Assembly (NCBI RefSeq): GCF_022832435.1
Contig: NZ_JALHLF010000006.1
Coordinates: forward strand, 1-64,000
DNA: 64,000 nucleotides
From: Novosphingobium organovorum
GTDB lineage: Bacteria; Pseudomonadota; Alphaproteobacteria; Sphingomonadales; Sphingomonadaceae
Direction: 5' to 3'
The notes below the pieces were generated by a model. It searched no databases and was not told the origin of the DNA. It was given only the letters and a program-made list of their open reading frames with translations. The translations under genes and the position numbers were made by a program. This document shows positions 13,695 through 52,126 of the stretch, in pieces. Each line of letters opens with the position of its first letter. Within the stretch, counting starts at the first letter, position 1.

Positions 13695-14936
13695 GTGGGC
13701 GATATCCTGTTCCTGGCACACCGCCTGCCGTTCCCGCCCGATCGCGGGGACAAGATCCGCTCGCACCACGTGCTGCGTGCGCTGGCCGGGCGTGCGCGGG
13801 TTCACGTCGCGACCTTTGCCGACGATGCGGCCGACTGGGCGCATGAGGGCGAACTGGCCAGGCTGGCTGAAAGCCACTGCCTCGTCGCGCGGCGCAAGCC
13901 CCTGGCGTGCGCGGCGGGCGAGGCGCTGCTTCGCCGCCGCCCGGTCAGCCTTTGCGCCTTTCACGATGCCCGGATCGCGGGCTATGTCGCCCGCGTGCTC
14001 GCCCGGCATCCGGTCTCGGCAATCTACATTTTCTCGGGCCAGATGGCGCAATACGTCCCGAAGGATTTCCAGGGACGTGTGGTGGCCGATCTGGTCGACG
14101 TCGATTCGGCCAAGTTCGAAGCTTACGCCAAGGCCGGGCACGGTCCGCGAGCCTGGCTGGAAGCGCGTGAGGCCCGGCTGCTCGCGGCCGAAGAGGCGCG
14201 CATCGCCGCGCGGGCTGATGCAACGCTCCTGGTCAGCGAGGCCGAGGCCGAACTGCTGCGCGCACGCCTGCCGCAGCCGCTCGCCTCGGTCCACGCGATG
14301 GGCAACGGGATCGATGCCGAGACCTTCAGGCCGGGGGCGGTGATGGCCGATCCGGGCATGGCCGAGGCCGGTTTCCCGCGTCTCGTCTTTACCGGGCAGA
14401 TGGATTATGCCCCCAACGTCGAGGCCGTGCTGCGCGCCGCCCACGCTGTTCTCCCCGCGGTTCGTGCGGTTTTTCCCGAGGCGAGCCTGCACATCGTCGG
14501 GCGCAATCCCACGCGCGAGGTCGAAGCGCTGGGCGCAATCGGGGGCGTTACGGTGTGGGGCCGCGTTGCCGACGTGCGCCCGTTCCTCGCCGCAGCCGAC
14601 ATGGCGCTGGTGCCGCTGTCCATCGCGCGCGGGGTCCAGAACAAGGTGCTCGAAGCGATGGCCATGGGCCTTCCCGTGGTCCTTTCGCGCGGGGCCGCCA
14701 CCGGTATTGCGGCAAGTGATGGGCGCCACTGGCGTATCGCGGGCAGCGATGCCGCGCTGGCCGAGGCGGTGATTGCGCTTGCCAGCGCTCCGGCGCAGGC
14801 ACGCGCGATGGGCGATGCCGCCCGCCAGTGGATCGTTGCCAACGCCAGCTGGTCCGCCGCGCTCGCCGGGCTGGGCTCATGGTGTGGGCTGGGCGAGGAT
14901 GATCGCAGGGCTGAGGAAAGGGTTTACGGTGGCTGA
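13695..14936 (+). CDS. TIGR03087-type glycosyltransferase, XrtA system
   Basis: A 413-residue GT-B (family GT4-like) glycosyltransferase starting with a GTG codon. It opens with ILFLAHRLPFPPDRGDKIRS, the acceptor-domain signature of the PEP-CTERM/XrtA subgroup. The C-terminal donor-binding domain has LVFTGQMDYAPNVEAV, LHIVGRNPTREV, the EX7E-like region VPLSIARGVQNKVLEAMAMG and LPVVLSRGAATGI. It probably adds a sugar to the lipid-linked repeat unit at the cytoplasmic membrane. The donor cannot be read from sequence. Its end overlaps the exosortase start by 8 bases. Confidence 0.9.
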   Translation: MGDILFLAHRLPFPPDRGDKIRSHHVLRALAGRARVHVATFADDAADWAHEGELARLAESHCLVARRKPLACAAGEALLRRRPVSLCAFHDARIAGYVARVLARHPVSAIYIFSGQMAQYVPKDFQGRVVADLVDVDSAKFEAYAKAGHGPRAWLEAREARLLAAEEARIAARADATLLVSEAEAELLRARLPQPLASVHAMGNGIDAETFRPGAVMADPGMAEAGFPRLVFTGQMDYAPNVEAVLRAAHAVLPAVRAVFPEASLHIVGRNPTREVEALGAIGGVTVWGRVADVRPFLAAADMALVPLSIARGVQNKVLEAMAMGLPVVLSRGAATGIAASDGRHWRIAGSDAALAEAVIALASAPAQARAMGDAARQWIVANASWSAALAGLGSWCGLGEDDRRAEERVYGG

Positions 14937-16491
14937 CACGGGATCTGCGGGCTCCGCCCCGATCATGCGCGGTCTTGCCATCGTGCCGGGCTGGCGCGTG
15001 CCGCTCGTTCGGCTGGGCGCCTTGTGGCTGCTCCTCTTCGTGGTCTTCGCGTCCGACTGGATGGCGATGGTGCGCCAGTGGTGGGATATTTCCACCTACA
15101 ACCACATGATCCTGATCCCGATCGTCGAGGTCTGGCTGGTCTGGCAGCGGCGCCGGGAACTGGCGCAGCTGGAGCCGGCGGCTTCGGCGCTTGGCCTCGT
15201 GCTTTTTGCAGGAGCGGCGCTGCTGTGGCTGCTGGGCGGCGTATCGGGCTTCGATCTCGTGCGCCAGGCGGGCGCCGTGGCGCTGCTCGCGGCCAGCGTG
15301 CCACTGCTGCTGGGCCTGCGGGTGAGCGCCGCGCTGCTTTTCCCGCTGTGCTATCTCGTGTTCATCGTTCCCTTCGGCGAAGAGATGGTGAAGTCGCTCC
15401 AGACGATCACCGCGCACATCACCATCGCTCTTACCCATGCCAGCGGCATTCCGGCGGTGATCGACGGGGTCTTCATTGATACCCCCGCCGGGCTGTTCGA
15501 AGTGGCCGAGGCCTGTTCGGGCGTAAAGTTCCTCATCGCGATGATCGCTTTTGGCGTGCTTGCGGCCAATGTCTGTTTCGTCAGCTGGCGGCGGCGCGGC
15601 GTGCTCCTGCTCGCCTGTCTCGTCGTTCCGATCCTCGCCAACGGGGTGCGCGCCTGGGGGACGATCTACGCGGCGCAGATCGTCGGTACGCGGGTTGCGG
15701 CCGGGTTTGACCACATCGTCTATGGCTGGTTCTTCTTTGCCATCGTGCTGGCGCTGGTGATCCTGGGGGCCTGGCGCTTCTTCGACCGGCCGAGCGAGGC
15801 GCCGATGATCGACATTGCCGCGCTGCGTGCCAATAGGGTGCTGGCGCGGGCCGAACGGCGCATGCGGCTAAGCCCGGTCCTGGCGCTTGCGTTGTGCCTT
15901 GCGGCGCTCGCGGGGGTCAAGCTGTGGGCCTATCGCGGCGATCATCTGGCCGCGCCCTTGCCCGCGCGGATCGTCTTGCCCGACGTGCCCGGCTGGACGC
16001 GGGTGCCCTACGCGCCGAGCGTGTGGTGGGAACCGCTCGCCCAGGGGAGCGAGCACCGCCTGCTGGGGCGCTACGCCGATGCCTCCGGCGCGACGGTCGA
16101 TGTCTTCGTCGCGCTCTATTCGGGACAAGGCGAAGGGCGCGAGGCGGGGGGCTTCGGGCAGGGGGCGCTGACCCCCGAGACGTCCTGGTCGTGGCAGTCC
16201 TCGGCACCGGGGATCGAGCAGGGGCGGGGCGAACGTCTGCTCGCCGAAGGGCGGGTCGAGCGTCTGGCGCAGACCTGGTATCGCAACGGCGGGCTGCTTT
16301 CGGGCAGCAATCTCGAGCTCAAGCTGGCGGTCATCGCCGACCAGATGGCGCTGCGCGCCGAACCGACGACGCTGCTGATCCTGTCGGCCGAAGAAGGCGA
16401 GCGGCACGACGCTGCCGCGCGTATCGCGCGGTTTCGCGCGGCGAGCGGGCCGCTTGCCAGCTGGATAGACCGCATCGCGGCAGGACGATAG
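14929..16491 (+). CDS. xrtA: Exosortase A fused to an EpsI domain
   Basis: A 520-residue polytopic membrane protease-transpeptidase that sorts PEP-CTERM proteins. Eight or so hydrophobic segments fill residues 25-310. The expected catalytic residues are present: Cys196 in VAEACSGVKFLIAM, Arg241 in ILANGVRAWG and His262 in GFDHIVYGWFFF. From about residue 310 the periplasmic EpsI (DUF3485) domain follows (LPDVPGWTRVPY, ALYSGQGEGREA), the usual fusion in XrtA. I start at the GTG at 14929, overlapping the glycosyltransferase by 8 bases; the internal ATG giving MRGLAIVPGW is an alternative. No PEP-CTERM substrate gene is visible in this window. Confidence 0.93.
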   Translation: MADTGSAGSAPIMRGLAIVPGWRVPLVRLGALWLLLFVVFASDWMAMVRQWWDISTYNHMILIPIVEVWLVWQRRRELAQLEPAASALGLVLFAGAALLWLLGGVSGFDLVRQAGAVALLAASVPLLLGLRVSAALLFPLCYLVFIVPFGEEMVKSLQTITAHITIALTHASGIPAVIDGVFIDTPAGLFEVAEACSGVKFLIAMIAFGVLAANVCFVSWRRRGVLLLACLVVPILANGVRAWGTIYAAQIVGTRVAAGFDHIVYGWFFFAIVLALVILGAWRFFDRPSEAPMIDIAALRANRVLARAERRMRLSPVLALALCLAALAGVKLWAYRGDHLAAPLPARIVLPDVPGWTRVPYAPSVWWEPLAQGSEHRLLGRYADASGATVDVFVALYSGQGEGREAGGFGQGALTPETSWSWQSSAPGIEQGRGERLLAEGRVERLAQTWYRNGGLLSGSNLELKLAVIADQMALRAEPTTLLILSAEEGERHDAAARIARFRAASGPLASWIDRIAAGR

Positions 16492-16501
16492 GAGAGGCGC
16501 C

Positions 16502-18397
16502 ATGTGCGGAATTGCCGGTATCTTCCACCTCGATACGCCCAAGCCCGTCGATCCCGCGCGGCTGAGCGCGATGTGCGATGCCCTGGCCCACCGCGGGCCG
16601 GATGGAGAGGGGATCTGGACCGGGCCGGGTGTCGGGCTCGGCCACCGCCGGCTCTCGATCATCGATCTGGCCGGTTCGCCGCAGCCCATGGCCGCAGCGG
16701 ACGCGCGTGCGATGCTCGTCTTCAACGGCGAAATCTACAACTACCGCGAGCTGCGCGCCGAGCTCAAGGCGATGGGGGCGGTGTTCCGCACCGATGGCGA
16801 CAGCGAGGTGATCCTGGCCGCCTGGCAGCGCTGGGGCCCCGAATGCGTCACGCGGCTCGAGGGCATGTTCGCCTTCGCGCTTTACGACTGCGAGGCGCGT
16901 ACATTGTTCCTGGCGCGTGACCGTCTCGGGGTGAAGCCGCTCCACTATGCGCAGCTGAGCAACGGCAGTCTGATCTTCGGTTCCGAACTCAAGGCCTTGC
17001 TTGCCCACCCGCTGATGCGGCGCGAGATCGACCCGCTGGCGGTCGAGGACTATCTGACCTGGGGCTATGTCCCCGACAGCCGCGCGTTTCTCAAGAACGT
17101 GCACAAGATGCCCGCGGGCCATTGGCTGCTGCTGCGTCACGGCGCGCCGCTGCCCGCGCCCAGCCAGTGGTGGGATGTCTCCTTCGCCGATCGCCACAAG
17201 GGCAAGGCGCAGGATCTCGAAGCCGAGCTGCTCTACCATCTGCGCCGGGCGGTCGAATCGCGCATGGTCGCGGACGTGCCGCTGGGGGCCTTCCTGTCGG
17301 GCGGGGTGGACAGCTCGAGCGTGGTCGCGCTGATGGCCGAAATCAGCCATCAGTCCGTGCGCACCTGCTCGATCGGGTTCGATAGCGCCGCGCTCGACGA
17401 AAGCGCCTATGCCAGCAAGGTCGCGCAGCTGTTCGGCACCGATCACGCCACGCGGGTGGTGTCGGCGGACGATTACGGCGCGATCGACCAGCTCGCCGAG
17501 ATGTTCGACGAGCCCTTTGCCGATGCCTCGGCGCTGCCGACCTGGCGGGTGTGCCAGCTCGCGCGCGAATCGGTCACCGTCGCGCTGTCGGGCGATGGTG
17601 CGGACGAGGCGCTGGCGGGGTATCGGCGGCATATCTTCCAGCATGGCGAGGATCGCGTGCGCGCGCTGCTGCCCCAGGCGTTGCGCGCGCCGGTGTTCGG
17701 CGGGCTCGGCGCGATCTACCCCAAGGCCGACTGGGCGCCGCGAGCGCTGCGCGCGAAAACGACGCTGCTGGCGCTCGCCGGGAGCAGTGAGGAAGGCTAT
17801 GCGCGCGCGCTGGCCTATGCCCCGCCCGAGCTGCGTAGCCGCCTCTACACGCCTGATTTCGAGCGTCTGCGCGGCGATTATCGTGCCGAACAGCCGCTTA
17901 TCGATCGAATGCGCGCGGCGCCCGCGCGATCGGGGCTGGATCGGGCGCAATACGCCGATCTCAAGGTCTGGCTGCCCGGCGACATCCTCACCAAGACCGA
18001 CCGGACGAGCATGGCGGTCAGCCTGGAAGCGCGCGAACCTCTGCTCGATCACCGTCTGATCGAGTTTGCGGCCGGTCTGCCCGAATCGCTGCGCGTGCGC
18101 GGGAGGCAGGGCAAGTGGCTGATGAAGCGGGCGATGGCGCGCAGCCTGCCCGACGAGGTCCTCTATCGCCCCAAGCAGGGTTTCGTGACACCGATCGCGC
18201 AATGGTTTCGCGGCCCGTTGCGCGAAACGGCCCGTGGTATCGCCTCGGGCAAGGCGCTTGCGGCGACGGGATGGTTCGATTCCGCCCGGCTTGAGGGGAT
18301 GGTCGAGGCGCATATCGCGGGCCAGGCCGATTATGCACGTCTGTTGTGGCAACTTACGATGCTCGATCGGTCGTTTACCAAGTTGGGACTTGGCTGA
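16502..18397 (+). CDS. XrtA-system amidotransferase, asparagine synthase-like
   Basis: A 631-residue class II glutamine amidotransferase/asparagine synthase family protein. The N-terminal nucleophile is Cys2 (MCGIAGIFHLDTP), with the glutaminase signatures LAHRGPDGEG and LVFNGEIYNYRELR. The synthetase domain carries the PP-loop FLSGGVDSSSVVALM near residue 265 and VALSGDGADEALAGY. In XrtA loci such proteins are thought to amidate a sugar carboxylate or an intermediate, using Gln and ATP; the acceptor is unknown. It is the last gene of the rightward operon, 10 bases after xrtA. Confidence 0.92.
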   Translation: MCGIAGIFHLDTPKPVDPARLSAMCDALAHRGPDGEGIWTGPGVGLGHRRLSIIDLAGSPQPMAAADARAMLVFNGEIYNYRELRAELKAMGAVFRTDGDSEVILAAWQRWGPECVTRLEGMFAFALYDCEARTLFLARDRLGVKPLHYAQLSNGSLIFGSELKALLAHPLMRREIDPLAVEDYLTWGYVPDSRAFLKNVHKMPAGHWLLLRHGAPLPAPSQWWDVSFADRHKGKAQDLEAELLYHLRRAVESRMVADVPLGAFLSGGVDSSSVVALMAEISHQSVRTCSIGFDSAALDESAYASKVAQLFGTDHATRVVSADDYGAIDQLAEMFDEPFADASALPTWRVCQLARESVTVALSGDGADEALAGYRRHIFQHGEDRVRALLPQALRAPVFGGLGAIYPKADWAPRALRAKTTLLALAGSSEEGYARALAYAPPELRSRLYTPDFERLRGDYRAEQPLIDRMRAAPARSGLDRAQYADLKVWLPGDILTKTDRTSMAVSLEAREPLLDHRLIEFAAGLPESLRVRGRQGKWLMKRAMARSLPDEVLYRPKQGFVTPIAQWFRGPLRETARGIASGKALAATGWFDSARLEGMVEAHIAGQADYARLLWQLTMLDRSFTKLGLG

Positions 18398-18633: not shown

Positions 18634-20928
18634 ATGATGGCCCGATTGCGCCAGATCTGGAAAAGCGCGCGCTTCCGTATCGTCTTCTGGGCGACGGTAA
18701 CCGGCCTCGTGCTGGGCACGAGCGGGCTCAGCGTCATTGTCGAGGACGTGCTGCGCAACTTCCGCACGCCGCTGCGCCTGCACCCGTCGAACGGTCGCAT
18801 CGTGATGGTGCTGCTCGACGATCGAACGCTCGAAGCCCTTGATTCGCTGGACGTGAATCGTGGAGACGACGCGCAGGTTCTCAATTCGCTGCTGAAGGCC
18901 GGGGCAAGGCGCATTTTCTTCGATCGCCGCATTCCCGATCAGTCCACGCCGGCGCAGAGCGCCCGGTTTCTCGATGTTCTGCGCAGCAACCGGGGTAAGG
19001 TTTTCATTGGCGCCTTGCCCAGTGGCGATGGCCCGGTGGGCAATTATGCGGGACGGCTGCCCAAAAAGCAGTTCGTCGATGCATCCAGCCTGATCTCGCT
19101 GCTGACCCTGCACCATCCGTTCAATCTCGGGTTGGAGATTCCCTACTCATCGGAGAGTCCCTACGGACGAATTCCGACGCTTTCGGCCAAGATCGCCGGC
19201 GTTAGCAAGGGAACGAATGAACTCTTCCTTCCCGACTTTTCGATCGATGTCCGCTCGATCCCCGGCCTCAGCTACATCGACGTCCTGAACGGGAATTTCG
19301 ATCCATCGACCGTGCGCGGCAAGGACATCATCATCGCGCCGGCTGCGGTTACCTACAACGACATCCACAAGGTCCCTGGACAGTATGGGACGATCCCCGG
19401 CGGCTATCTTCAGGCGATCGCTGCAGAAACCCTGATGCAGGGGCTACCCCGCAATTATGGCTGGCTACTGCCGCTGTTAATCGTCGTTGCGATCATCGTC
19501 ACCGGTACGGGCCGCGGCCGCGTGCTCGACTGGAAGCGTTCGGCCGCGCTGCTGACCGTCATCGTTGCCGCGCCGTTCCTGCTCGACTACCTGCGCATTC
19601 GCATGGACGTGGCGCCCGCGCTTGTGGTCGCGATGATCGCGGTCCTGCGTATGCGCAGCCTGGATCGTGTCGAAGTCGCGAGCGAGACCAACACCGGCTC
19701 GGGCTTGCCGAGCGTTCAGGCGCTGCGCAATTCGGACGAGAAGTCCAACCGCATCCTGGTCGCCCTCAAGATCCGCAATTACGGCGCGATCATCGGCAGC
19801 TTTGCCGAAACCGTCGAGGCGAGCGTCGCGCGCGAGATCGTGCGCCGCATCCGGATCAGCGACGACACGGTAACGGTCTACCACGAAGGCGGCATGTTCA
19901 TGTGGCTGTCCTCGATCCGCAGCACGTTCGATCTGTTCGAGAACCTCGAGGGGCTTCACCGGATCGTTCAGAACGGCATTCAGGTCGGCGGGCTCGACAT
20001 CGACCTGTCGTTCAACTGCGGTGTCGATTCCGAATTCGATCGCCCGCTGTCGGCGCGCGTTGCCGGAGCGATGCAGTCGGCCGAGGAAGCCGTGCGCAAC
20101 GACGAACTGGTCTACCAGCACGACAGCCGCAAGCACGAGGCGCAGTGGGAAATCTCGTTGCTGACCTCGCTTGACCGCGCGATCGACAATGGCGAGGTCT
20201 GGGTTGCCTACCAGCCCAAGTTCGACTTGCGCGAAAGTCGCATCTGCGGCGCCGAAGCGCTGGTACGCTGGACACACCCCGATCGCGGGCCGATCTCGCC
20301 CGAGAAGTTCATCCGGATCGCCGAGGAGTTCCATCGGATCGAGCGGATCACGCGTTTCGTCGTCGACGATGCGGTGCGGTGCGGGGTGGAGATGATGCGC
20401 AAGGGCATCGACATGACGATGTCGGTCAACATCTCGGCGCAACTGCTGCGCAATCCCGGCCTGCCGGGGATGATCTCGGACATTCTGGCGGTCCATGGCC
20501 TGCCGAGCGACCGCCTGATCCTCGAAATCACCGAGACCGACCGGCTCGACCGCAGCTCGCGCACGTACCAGATGCTCCAGCGCCTGGTGCATTCGGGGCT
20601 GCGGCTGTCGATCGACGATTTCGGCACCGGCAACGCGACCCTCGAATACTTGCGCTACCTGCCGGCGAGCGAGGTCAAGATCGACCGTTCGTTCGTCTCG
20701 CTGATGGAGACCAGCAAGGAAGATCTGGTCCTGGTGCAGTCGATCATCGACATGGCCCATTCGCTCGACCGTACCGTGGTGGCCGAAGGGGTTGAGACCG
20801 CGCGGGGCATGGAAATGCTCAAGGAGCGGGGGTGTGACATCGTCCAGGGCTACTATATCGGCCGTCCAGTCCCGTTTCGGGACATGCTGGAGCGGGTTAC
20901 AGGAAATTCACACCGCCAAATTGGTTAA
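18634..20928 (+). CDS. CHASE2 sensor / EAL c-di-GMP phosphodiesterase
   Basis: A 764-residue membrane signalling protein. Residues 1-40 hold a first membrane segment; a periplasmic CHASE2 sensor follows (RIVMVLLDDRTLEALDSLDV, IIAPAAVTYNDIHKVPGQYG), then two to three membrane segments (LLPLLIVVAIIVTGT and following). Residues of about 340-500 look like a degenerate GGDEF without the signature. The EAL domain at about 510-755 retains EALVRW, SVNISAQ, LEITETD, IDDFGTG, VKIDRSFV, AEGVET and the final QGYYIGRP, so catalytic activity is expected. It sits directly after the exopolysaccharide operon and could tune c-di-GMP levels that affect polymer production. Confidence 0.9.
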   Translation: MMARLRQIWKSARFRIVFWATVTGLVLGTSGLSVIVEDVLRNFRTPLRLHPSNGRIVMVLLDDRTLEALDSLDVNRGDDAQVLNSLLKAGARRIFFDRRIPDQSTPAQSARFLDVLRSNRGKVFIGALPSGDGPVGNYAGRLPKKQFVDASSLISLLTLHHPFNLGLEIPYSSESPYGRIPTLSAKIAGVSKGTNELFLPDFSIDVRSIPGLSYIDVLNGNFDPSTVRGKDIIIAPAAVTYNDIHKVPGQYGTIPGGYLQAIAAETLMQGLPRNYGWLLPLLIVVAIIVTGTGRGRVLDWKRSAALLTVIVAAPFLLDYLRIRMDVAPALVVAMIAVLRMRSLDRVEVASETNTGSGLPSVQALRNSDEKSNRILVALKIRNYGAIIGSFAETVEASVAREIVRRIRISDDTVTVYHEGGMFMWLSSIRSTFDLFENLEGLHRIVQNGIQVGGLDIDLSFNCGVDSEFDRPLSARVAGAMQSAEEAVRNDELVYQHDSRKHEAQWEISLLTSLDRAIDNGEVWVAYQPKFDLRESRICGAEALVRWTHPDRGPISPEKFIRIAEEFHRIERITRFVVDDAVRCGVEMMRKGIDMTMSVNISAQLLRNPGLPGMISDILAVHGLPSDRLILEITETDRLDRSSRTYQMLQRLVHSGLRLSIDDFGTGNATLEYLRYLPASEVKIDRSFVSLMETSKEDLVLVQSIIDMAHSLDRTVVAEGVETARGMEMLKERGCDIVQGYYIGRPVPFRDMLERVTGNSHRQIG

Positions 20929-20935
20929 AAATTCG

Positions 20936-20964
20936 TTGATACATCGTTAACGGATCGTTATCCA
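20936..20964 (+). promoter_or_regulatory. Sigma-70-type promoter of the small transcription unit
   Basis: TTGATA at 20936-20941, a 17-base spacer and TATCCA at 20959-20964. The predicted start of transcription is near 20971, giving a transcript of roughly 165 bases ending at the terminator. Confidence 0.6.
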
Positions 20965-21008
20965 TGTTAGCTGTCGCAGATAAGCGACGGTTCACATGGG
21001 GAAATGCA

Positions 21009-21047
21009 ATGTTTGGTGGTTATTGGTGGGGCGCTCTCGGCGCCTAA
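21009..21047 (+). CDS. 12-residue Trp/Gly-rich micro-ORF
   Basis: The reading frame encodes MFGGYWWGALGA and a TAA stop. It has a plausible Shine-Dalgarno (GGGGA at 20998-21002, 6 bases from the ATG), lies 38 bases after the predicted transcription start and is followed by two hairpins, the second a terminator. No downstream gene on this strand is co-transcribed; zapE is convergent. It could be a tiny membrane-active peptide, the coding part of a dual-function sRNA, or an incidental ORF in a non-coding RNA. I do not recognise it as a known family. Confidence 0.4.
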   Translation: MFGGYWWGALGA

Positions 21048-21097
21048 TTGGACGCTGAAATGATGTTTTCGGACATCATTGCCCAATAAACGAAAGG

Positions 21098-21134
21098 CCC
21101 TCGGGAGACTTTAGCGAGTTTTCCGAGGGTTTTT
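21098..21134 (+). terminator. Intrinsic terminator of the small transcription unit
   Basis: Stem CCCTCGG (21098-21104) with CCGAGGG (21123-21129), a loop of 18 bases and a run of five T then CTTT. The flanking A-run and T-run extend the pairing. Confidence 0.75.
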
Positions 21135-21316
21135 CTTTGGGTTTGACCGGGGCTTTTTGCGCCCTTTATTCGAAATTAACCGTGATGTCGGTCACGATGC
21201 GGCTCGAATTGCATCGATGATGGACAAGTTTTGACGAGATTTTACGCCCGGCATGGGTTTCGCTGGATCGTTTCGTTAGCTAACCGATTCGCGAATGGTA
21301 ACGCGAAAGCGGGCGA

Positions 21317-22432
21317 TCAACTGTCGCCGTGGCCCATTGCCAGGTAGTCCGCGCTCTGCATCTCGTTGAGGCGGCTGACGGTCCGCTCGAATTCGAAGCG
21401 GCCGGTCCCGGCTTCGTAGAGCTCTTCAGGCGCGGCATCCGCTGCCGCGATCAGCTTGACCTTGTTTTCGTAGAGCGCGTCGATCAGCGTGACGAAACGC
21501 GCGGCCTCGTTGCGGCGATCGGGGCCCATGCGCGGAATGCCGACGATGATGACCGTGTGATAGGCGCGCGCAATGGCCAGATAGTCCGAAGCGCCGCGCG
21601 CTTCGGCGCACAGGCGCTTGAAGCTGAAGACGCCCACGCCCTTGAGGCTCTTGGGGACGTGCAGCATGCGCCCGCCACCCACGTCGATGTCCGCGGGCGG
21701 GACATGGTCGGCATCTTCGGGCGGGTAGTCGGTCAGGCGGTAGAAGGCCTCGCGGGTCTGTTCGGTCGCTTCTTCGCCCAGCGGGGTGTGCCAGGTCGCC
21801 ATGCCGCCCAGGCGCTCCAGTCGATAGTCCGTCGGGCCGTTGAGCGTCAGCACGTCGAGCTCACGCTCGATGAGGGCGATGAACGGGAGGAAGTGCTCGC
21901 GGTTGAGCCCGTCCTTGTAGAGATCCTTGGGCGCGCGGTTCGACGTCGTCACGATGGTCACGCCTTCCTCGAGGATGAGGTGGGTGAACAGCCGACTCAT
22001 GATCATCGCATCGGCCGAATTGTTGACGACCATCTCGTCGAAGGCCAGGCACTGCAGGTTGCGCGCCAGTGTGGCGGCCACCGGCGGAATCGGATCGCCG
22101 CTTTCCTTTTTGCGCTCCTCGTTGAGCAGCGCATGCACTTCAAGCATGAAGGCGTGGAAGTGGACGCGGCGCTTGTCGGGAATGTCGAGCGTCTGGTGGA
22201 ACAGGTCCATCAGCATCGACTTGCCACGCCCCACGCCGCCCCACATGTAGACCCCGCGGGGGCTCTGGGGCTTCTTGCCCAGCAGCTTGCCGAGAAAGCC
22301 CGTCGAACTGCGCGCCTTGTAGAAGTCGCGCTGGAGCTGGTTCAGCCGTTCGGCCGCTGCGGCCTGCTCGGGGTCGGCGCGCAGTTCGCCCGTCGCCACA
22401 AGCGCTTCGTAGCGTTCGAGCATCGCCGTCAC
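21317..22432 (-). CDS. zapE: Cell division ATPase ZapE (AFG1-like)
   Basis: A 371-residue AFG1/ZapE-family P-loop ATPase. Walker A is GGVGRGKSMLMDLFHQ (about 66-81), preceded by the family motif GVYMWG; Walker B is LAFDEMVVNNSADAMIM; sensor segments TTSNRAPKDLYKDGLNR and FKRLCAEARGASDYLAIA follow. ZapE acts at the Z-ring in E. coli, while the eukaryotic relative works in mitochondrial protein quality control. The start used is a GTG at 22432; the ATG at 22423 (MLERYEAL) is equally possible and neither has a clear Shine-Dalgarno. It lies 118 bases downstream of sdhB on the same strand. Confidence 0.93.
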   Translation of the reverse strand: MTAMLERYEALVATGELRADPEQAAAAERLNQLQRDFYKARSSTGFLGKLLGKKPQSPRGVYMWGGVGRGKSMLMDLFHQTLDIPDKRRVHFHAFMLEVHALLNEERKKESGDPIPPVAATLARNLQCLAFDEMVVNNSADAMIMSRLFTHLILEEGVTIVTTSNRAPKDLYKDGLNREHFLPFIALIERELDVLTLNGPTDYRLERLGGMATWHTPLGEEATEQTREAFYRLTDYPPEDADHVPPADIDVGGGRMLHVPKSLKGVGVFSFKRLCAEARGASDYLAIARAYHTVIIVGIPRMGPDRRNEAARFVTLIDALYENKVKLIAAADAAPEELYEAGTGRFEFERTVSRLNEMQSADYLAMGHGDS

Positions 22433-51425: not shown

Positions 51426-51540
51426 CAGCCTGTCTCCGGGCGCGCTCAGGATGAGCGGCCGTGCCGCGCTAGCACGCGCGGGAGCGCTACGTAAATGTCT
51501 GATGATGGATCAGGGGAGAGGCGCTTTCTGGCGCCGGAAA

Positions 51541-51616
51541 TGGTGACCCCTACGGGACTCGAACCCGTGTTTCAGCCGTGAAAGGGCCGCGTCCTAGACC
51601 GCTAGACGAAGGGGCC
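51541..51616 (-). tRNA. tRNA-Glu (anticodon TTC), copy 5 in transcription order
   Basis: 76 bases with encoded CCA. Anticodon loop CTTTCAC, acceptor GGCCCCT/AGGGGTC, T-loop GGTTCGAGTCC. It is the promoter-distal gene of the five-gene array. Confidence 0.96.
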
Positions 51617-51666
51617 AAAAGCCATTTTCAACGAACTTTTCGAAACACCGCCTCGCGAACGAGAGA

Positions 51667-51742
51667 TGGTGACCCCTACGGGACTCGAACCCGTGTTTCA
51701 GCCGTGAGAGGGCCGCGTCCTAGACCGCTAGACGAAGGGGCC
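51667..51742 (-). tRNA. tRNA-Glu (anticodon CTC), copy 4 in transcription order
   Basis: 76 bases with encoded CCA, identical to the TTC genes except for the anticodon: loop CTCTCAC, so it reads GAG codons. Confidence 0.95.
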
Positions 51743-51780
51743 GAAAAGCCATTTTTCTGCCTGCCAGGCGCCGCACCGGA

Positions 51781-51856
51781 TGGTGACCCCTACGGGACTC
51801 GAACCCGTGTTTCAGCCGTGAAAGGGCCGCGTCCTAGACCGCTAGACGAAGGGGCC
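51781..51856 (-). tRNA. tRNA-Glu (anticodon TTC), copy 3 in transcription order
   Basis: 76 bases with CCA, identical to the gene at 51541-51616. Confidence 0.96.
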
Positions 51857-51906
51857 AAAAGCCATTTTCAACGAACTTTTCGAAACACCGCCTCGCGAAC
51901 GAGAGA

Positions 51907-51982
51907 TGGTGACCCCTACGGGACTCGAACCCGTGTTTCAGCCGTGAGAGGGCCGCGTCCTAGACCGCTAGACGAAGGGGCC
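51907..51982 (-). tRNA. tRNA-Glu (anticodon CTC), copy 2 in transcription order
   Basis: 76 bases with CCA, identical to the gene at 51667-51742. Confidence 0.95.
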
Positions 51983-52020
51983 GAAAAGCCATTTTTCTGC
52001 CTGCCAGGCGCCGCACCGGA

Positions 52021-52096
52021 TGGTGACCCCTACGGGACTCGAACCCGTGTTTCAGCCGTGAAAGGGCCGCGTCCTAGACCGCTAGACGAAGGGGCC
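52021..52096 (-). tRNA. tRNA-Glu (anticodon TTC), copy 1 in transcription order
   Basis: 76 bases with CCA, next to the promoter. Its upstream flank differs from the repeat unit, so it marks the end of the duplicated block. Confidence 0.96.
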
Positions 52097-52126
52097 ATTC
52101 CGAGCTGCGCCGGAGGCAGGACCGGC

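Follow-up and report, generated by a model that had tools for sequence, protein, structure and literature searches.

A Trp-rich micropeptide gene linked to CHASE2–EAL genes in the Sphingomonadaceae, with a putative tie to CtrA

Behind the gene for a CHASE2–EAL protein in Novosphingobium organovorum lies a short transcription unit that, judged from its sequence and those of its relatives, is almost certainly a micropeptide gene. The unit occupies the plus strand of the 64,000-nucleotide stretch of DNA that we analysed (the ‘window’), between the CHASE2–EAL stop codon (20928) and a convergent zapE-like gene (21317). It would be an independently transcribed and translated gene, and a short member of a peptide family that accompanies one clade of CHASE2–EAL genes in the Sphingomonadaceae. 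The gene and its association with CHASE2–EAL are well supported; what the peptide does, and in which direction it acts, we infer. The best explanation overall, and one that we consider reasonably probable, is a CtrA-linked micropeptide whose target, or means of action, is the c-di-GMP phosphodiesterase encoded next to it.

The unit begins with a putative promoter, TTGATA-N17-TATCCA (20936–20964), the −35 element of which (TTGATA, 20936–20941) starts 8 nt past the CHASE2–EAL stop and the −10 element of which (TATCCA) occupies 20959–20964. This is followed by a 5′ hairpin of 9 pairs with the loop AGATAA (20969–20992; −13.1 kcal/mol, z −4.7), by the block TTCACATGGGGA with its Shine–Dalgarno sequence, GGGGA (20991–21002), and by a 12-codon ORF encoding MFGGYWWGALGA (21009–21047), which starts with ATG at 21009 and whose TAA ends at 21047. 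One hairpin encloses the stop codon (21037–21058; z −4.4), and another, of 9 pairs with a UUCG loop, comes next (21059–21080; −8.4 kcal/mol, z −3.1). The unit closes with an intrinsic terminator, a 20-pair stem and a U run (21092–21135; −30.8 kcal/mol, z −7.0). All of these elements are on the plus strand, and every hairpin is more stable than shuffled versions of itself. The 172-nt stretch as a whole (20967–21138) folds with a z of −5.5, and none of 200 shuffles was equally stable. The unit occurs once in its own genome. A scan of the 64-kb window against Rfam gave six matches, all of them tRNAs, and the unit reaches no family's gathering score. A preliminary description of this DNA had reported promoter, 5′ hairpin, Shine–Dalgarno, ORF, second hairpin and terminator, and all are found at these positions. 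The hairpin that it gave as 8 bp exists, but folds with 9 pairs, and the stop-codon hairpin is an addition to its list. It also held, correctly, that no co-directional gene lies directly behind the unit, zapE being convergent. The promoter of the window unit is putative, and rests on similarity to relatives: across 19 aligned orthologues, the TTG of the −35 element and the TA-N-CC of the −10 element are invariant. The window's own −10 agrees with TATAAT at 3 of 6 positions, and a scan of 20400–21800 with the sigma-70 consensus reported no promoters.

Close relatives within Novosphingobium were collected with R1, a covariance model of the core from −35 to ATG, built from the 19 orthologues after a pattern search of the genus. 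Of the 194 genomes of the genus, 41 contain this promoter-to-ATG core according to R1, each in a single copy. One further strong match came from a draw of 397 genomes of the family, in a genome (G495) that is filed outside the genus and carries 6% contamination. All 42 R1 units, G495 included, lie behind a CHASE2–EAL gene; in one (L077), the two are ~160 nt further apart than elsewhere. The check proposed with the preliminary description was conservation of ORF and stems in relatives; the core is present in 41/194 genomes, and its 5′ stem covaries. Matches of the pattern search were read only if they had an exact TTCACATGGG block on site; L010, L011, L013, L017, L020, L025 and L038 were left out of further reading, and L018 and L037 were discarded after being read. 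A DNA similarity search returned one true orthologue besides the window (L005), together with chance matches (L006–L008), and three R1 matches with E-values of 0.01–0.09 (L042–L044) were likewise taken as chance and removed. A scan of named genomes (41 stretches) returned Novosphingobium records, and the detector described below confirmed the unit in, for instance, N. resinovorum, N. panipatense, N. guangzhouense and N. beihaiensis. It also matched organisms that are not sphingomonads (e.g. Phyllobacterium and Thermococcus), presumably by chance; the pattern fixes 19 bases.

In 41 of the 42 R1 units, a Trp-bearing frame of 10–16 codons starts at the ATG of the model or no more than 2 nt from it (e.g. 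MLSGYWWGSFGH, MYSWLWGGLGR, MNKDIWGGGWWGSGL and MKKWPWAGWNW), and R1 units were chosen by leader sequence, independently of Trp. The sole exception, L080, encodes MLGNIGGRPKGG; together with L249 it makes up the two members without Trp that we have seen overall. Residues of the 35 distinct R1 ORFs are 29% Gly and 21% Trp, and TGG occurs in frames 0, 1 and 2 at 88, 0 and 24 sites, respectively. In three gap-free groups of R1 sequences (of 8, 9 and 6), pN/pS is 0.67, 0.46 and 0.49, the last being the window's own subgroup; these values are modest and come from related sequences, and so are evidence for coding but no proof by themselves. The same TGG count over 101 distinct peptides of all types gives 230, 15 and 63 sites, but is biased and was not used as evidence, because ORFs outside R1 were partly selected by Trp. 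ATG was preferred in choosing the starts. Among the options raised in the preliminary description, that of a micro-protein gene is the one these data bear out, through the retained Trp ORF, a pN/pS below 1 and the peptide core of the wider family described below.

Trp attenuation was the first reading considered, and was abandoned once the peptide family emerged. The unit would, in that case, be a leader that senses Trp, as a trp attenuator does, but persists as a free RNA, with ribosome pausing at the Trp codons selecting between hairpins. The 2–4 Trp codons per 10–16-codon ORF in 34 of the 35 distinct R1 ORFs fit such a leader, as does the succession of ORF, hairpins and terminator in the window. 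Yet no co-directional trp biosynthesis gene lies behind the unit: zapE is convergent in the window, and in all 40 of the 42 R1 loci where it is seen. The number and placement of Trp also vary (the window ORF has two, and two members have none), and the long members of the family combine a Lys/Arg-rich N-terminus with a fixed core. We consider a Trp-sensing leader very improbable, and the ‘stand-alone leader’ of the preliminary description is unsupported on the same grounds, namely the convergent gene, the varying Trp codons and the two Trp-less members.

A regulatory or dual-function sRNA, which would act by base-pairing to targets, its ORF having a lesser part or aiding stability, has more in its favour, and we rate it as unlikely. 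The fold is very stable (z −5.5, above), and there is covariation in the 5′ stem: among the 19 orthologues, 4 of 7 counted pairs are changed on both sides, and 92.2% of stem cells are paired, compared with 84.2% in shuffles. The exact TTCACATGGG block is present in 37/42 R1 units; its invariance in the alignment of 19 is by construction, since those rows were picked for it. The hairpin at the stop codon recurs in many of the Novosphingobium units, with a mean z of −1.37 over 40 distinct R1 units and 20/40 below −1. By eye, this hairpin displays compensating changes between species, and might have a role in the end of translation or in RNA stability. Against a primary role for the RNA, the leader sequence shifts across the family while the peptide core stays, so that the core can be found with a protein profile; TGG codons are in frame in R1 units, and pN/pS is below 1. 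The earlier suggestion of a dual-function sRNA thus keeps a small probability. An RNA function may exist beside the peptide, since the 5′ stem covaries and the stop-codon hairpin recurs, but it is the peptide core that is kept when the leader changes, and we take a micropeptide gene as the preferred reading.

Beyond R1, the unit belongs to a wider family. We read 121 CHASE2–EAL loci and saw a unit at 109 of them, 12 being without one. In the family draw, all 42 CHASE2–EAL matches were read, and a unit was present at 31 and absent from 11; in the genus search, 71 of 91 were read, every one with a unit. Twenty of the genes from the genus are distant (34–55% identity), and each has a similarly built unit behind it; in other genera, a unit lies behind 27 of 29 CHASE2–EAL genes. 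The peptides of distant units are often longer, with a clear core (e.g. MAKRTKQPVRGFWDWLLGGGWSN, MRKDKRPNRGFWDWLFGDGHAGSR and MKNKKPNKGFWDWLLGGGWGSTGTGG, from an alignment termed A3). Sizes range over the family from 8 to 38 aa, and the longer peptides share the core GFWDWLxGGGW behind their Lys/Arg-rich N-termini. The peptides are rich in aromatic residues, and most of them are neutral to basic. In the 66 units outside R1, their mean net charge is +1.7, and the 5′ hairpin has a mean z of −2.08, with 77% below −1. No signal sequence is visible by eye, and most of the peptides are too short for a membrane span. Four loci of the genus (L159, L160, L171 and L172) have a different core (e.g. RSIWDSLGNFFG and RGFWDGIGHSFG) behind their CHASE2–EAL genes, and zapE was not seen near them. 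At another (L193), the pair has been separated naturally: an IS element, its transposase gene IS5-like by eye, sits past the EAL gene, and the unit beyond it, MGWFWRFLGGGGTDSAGGQA, is intact.

This large group of micropeptides is apparently undescribed. Six longer peptides searched against Pfam-A and NCBIfam matched no family at E ≤ 1 in either library, and searches of plasmids and phages with one 38-aa peptide gave matches only at E ≥ 2. Gene callers usually report nothing as small as 8–38 aa, which may be why so widespread a gene has seemingly gone unnoticed. In the open-licence literature, we found no paper that joins CHASE2 and EAL with a small protein or with ‘Sphingomon-’, and the part of PMC9756655 that we consulted does not mention CHASE2.

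The association with CHASE2–EAL genes was examined with a profile made from A3. Over 149 genomes of the family, the profile gives 27 matches at E ≤ 0.0117, and all 27 lie directly behind a CHASE2–EAL gene, as placed by coordinates for the profile's own rows and by reading for the new ones. Twenty are its own rows; the other seven are new, and lie behind homologues of 30.6–33.6% identity that an earlier cut-off had missed. Three matches between E 0.03 and 0.05 were also read: L233 is behind a CHASE2–EAL gene, and L231 and L232 (E 0.036) are not, and were rejected. In a draw of 181 genomes from the class, the sole match at E ≤ 0.012 falls within a reading frame of 373 aa (L300) and was taken as chance. 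Among 190 class genomes, the CHASE2–EAL protein itself has four matches outside the family at E ≤ 1e-60, all to the EAL part only. Against the window's own genome (G000), the profile gives no matches at E ≤ 1, so the window peptide is itself unmatched. It joins the family by position, by composition and by architecture (promoter, GC hairpin, Shine–Dalgarno, ATG, short aromatic ORF and terminator, all present in the window unit), rather than by profile score; by eye, peptides like MRKDFWGGHWGSSV are intermediates.

A blind detector, which looks for a Shine–Dalgarno sequence, an ORF of 7–45 aa with Trp, and a terminator, fires at one of the 44 gene ends in the window, that of the CHASE2–EAL gene. 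It fires at 80 of 108 companion loci; the other 28 units are missed by its strict settings and were called by eye. At L046, L049 and L242 it picked an ORF other than the one called, and in the window and at L085 it reports a frame that overlaps the called ORF within one and the same unit. On 70 gene ends from 16 Novosphingobium loci it made ten matches; the nine that were read lie at the CHASE2–EAL gene, and the tenth is from locus L095. It fires at none of the 12 unit-less loci, where it is blind to units that lack Trp or are more distant; these loci, L234 and L235 included, were judged by eye over 330–520 nt and by the detector over 600 nt. When 119 distinct rows are placed in a tree, the 12 proteins without a unit fall into a single clade (support 99), and the distribution requires one change, compared with a mean of 11.7 when shuffled (0/500 as low). 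The window's EAL gene (L040) falls inside the unit-bearing clade. The tree was made by a quick method from the C-terminal 434 columns, with long-branch warnings and an arbitrary root, and so does not distinguish gain of the unit from loss. Five genomes (G055, G081, G044, G050 and G146) each have one CHASE2–EAL copy with a unit and one without.

Short ORFs of this kind commonly arise by chance, and the unit could on that account be a functionless frame between a terminator and a spent promoter. The comparative data already contradict this, and we practically dismiss it: the detector fires at 1/44 gene ends of the window, the unit is present at 109/121 loci and absent from one clade, and profile matches at E ≤ 0.0117 are found only behind CHASE2–EAL genes.

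The preliminary description placed the unit just after a CHASE2–EAL gene, and at a junction with zapE. The first neighbour is right, although its constancy was missed; the second is not constant. zapE is seen near 51 of 108 units, within 0.5–2.2 kb behind the EAL stop, and the unit therefore tracks the EAL gene rather than the locus. At seven loci from other genomes of the genus (L251–L256 and L242), zapE is 71–75% identical to that of the window, and the C-terminal part of the CHASE2–EAL protein 33–37%. The zapE locus thus harbours two versions of CHASE2–EAL, each with its own peptide type. These versions reflect either fast evolution, or replacement together with the peptide gene; on this sequence comparison, the peptide travels with the enzyme, not with the locus. 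A shared neighbour is linkage, of course, and not interaction, and since the promoters seem separate, peptide and enzyme need not be produced together.

The CHASE2–EAL gene of the window (18634–20928, plus strand) encodes 764 aa, with Pfam CHASE2 at residues 36–287 and EAL at 512–745. Residues 333–750 align to DosP (9cmf), catalytic motifs included, and the EAL motifs are kept in register with it: EALVRW at 541, NIS at 599, EITET at 631, DDFGTG at 661, KID at 682 and EGVET at 718. Since these motifs are kept, the protein is likely an active c-di-GMP phosphodiesterase. The predicted structure of its CHASE2 part (residues 1–345; mean pLDDT 80.8, 11 rows) comprises N-terminal helices, an alpha/beta domain at about 50–277, and then three helices. 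Fold comparison of this prediction yielded no clear match, with a best Foldseek E-value of 0.065 and a best VIA Z of 4.5, and a sequence search of the PDB with residues 1–289 found no CHASE2 relatives at E ≤ 1. The zapE-like gene on the other side of the unit (21317–22432, minus strand) encodes an AFG1 ATPase (PF03969).

Upstream of the ORFs lies a second recurrent element, which may tie the unit to the cell cycle. TTAA-N7-TTAA, with at most one mismatch, is present in 35/35 distinct R1 units (8.0% in shuffles) and in 48/66 of the others (7.4% in shuffles). When the spacer is varied from 3 to 12 in these 66, seven is best (48 units), followed by six (29) and three (22), with ~5 expected; TTAA repeats are frequent upstream of the ORFs, which lifts most spacers above expectation. 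The sections of PMC11264516 that we consulted give TTAA-N7-TTAA as the CtrA consensus, and those of PMC2877005 place the CckA–ChpT–CtrA relay in the Sphingomonadales. In the window, the CtrA-like box (TTAA-CGGATCG-TTAT, 20947–20961, plus strand) has one mismatch and overlaps the supposed −10. In promoters that CtrA activates, its site is usually at −35, and a second site, over the −10 of hemE, takes part in repression, according to the same sections of PMC11264516. The overlap in the window could accordingly mean repression, or a misplaced promoter.

We propose that the peptide would be the working product of the gene; that it would lie at the membrane interface, as expected from its small size, its aromatic residues and glycines, and the neutral to basic charge of most members; and that it may tune from there the activity of the neighbouring CHASE2–EAL protein. 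Its transcription would be tied to CtrA by the TTAA-N7-TTAA box, and in that event the peptide would connect the CckA–ChpT–CtrA relay to the breakdown of c-di-GMP. The parts of this proposal differ in strength. That the peptide is a functional partner of the CHASE2–EAL protein we regard as probable; that it acts on this protein from the membrane is possible, at rather less than an even chance. CHASE2 is described, in the portion of PMC10581220 that we consulted, as an extracellular sensor module ‘with unknown ligands’, and the peptide genes, sitting right behind one branch of CHASE2–EAL genes, make the peptide a candidate partner or signal of the sensor. The boldest version, that the CtrA-controlled micropeptide is the cognate signal of CHASE2, switching the phosphodiesterase at its periplasmic domain or membrane helices, is tentative and somewhat unlikely. 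The peptide might, instead, act alone, as a membrane-active toxin-like or antimicrobial peptide whose CHASE2–EAL neighbourhood is merely inherited. Membrane-active peptides are typically short, Trp-rich and positively charged, as these mostly are. The neighbourhood is kept across different loci, however, and with two very different versions of CHASE2–EAL at the zapE locus, and we consider independent action distinctly unlikely.

Several known systems resemble the one proposed, in which the peptide would act with its neighbour. One is rnTrpL/peTrpL of Sinorhizobium meliloti (PMC7298713), also a tiny, Trp-rich alphaproteobacterial ORF on a short, terminator-ended RNA, and a precedent for a leader-size peptide that acts in trans. 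peTrpL derives from a transcription attenuator; in the present case, the window unit faces a convergent gene, the number of Trp varies, and the constant neighbour is upstream. KdpF, MgtR and CydX likewise are encoded by very short genes kept beside a gene for a membrane protein. Regulators of this type are mostly transmembrane, and often within one operon, whereas the present peptides are mostly too short to span a membrane, and their genes seemingly have their own promoter and terminator. Peptide pheromone–receptor cassettes of Gram-positive bacteria pair a fast-changing short peptide gene with a fast-changing gene for a membrane sensor, much as here, but by eye our peptides have no export signal, and could equally well work in the cytosol or the membrane. 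Type I toxin genes specify short peptides on small structured RNAs, too; by eye, the peptides of the present family lack their hydrophobic membrane span.

The peptide offers a concrete candidate partner of CHASE2–EAL to test, one kept through changes of locus, through a marked divergence of the enzyme into two versions, and through the insertion of an IS element. Should the peptide control the phosphodiesterase, and CtrA the peptide, this would be a new link between the cell-cycle relay and c-di-GMP in Alphaproteobacteria. And if it is the signal of CHASE2, it would be the first CHASE2 ligand, and the enzyme a peptide-gated second-messenger enzyme in Gram-negatives.

Two further features of the window deserve mention. 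ORFs upstream of the CHASE2–EAL gene (14773–18397) resemble what we take to be an exosortase and an amidotransferase of the asparagine-synthase type. And five tRNA-Glu genes are arranged in tandem on the minus strand (51540–52097), with the anticodons TTC, CTC, TTC, CTC and TTC; within this array, 240 bp are exactly duplicated, 51540–51779 being identical to 51780–52019.
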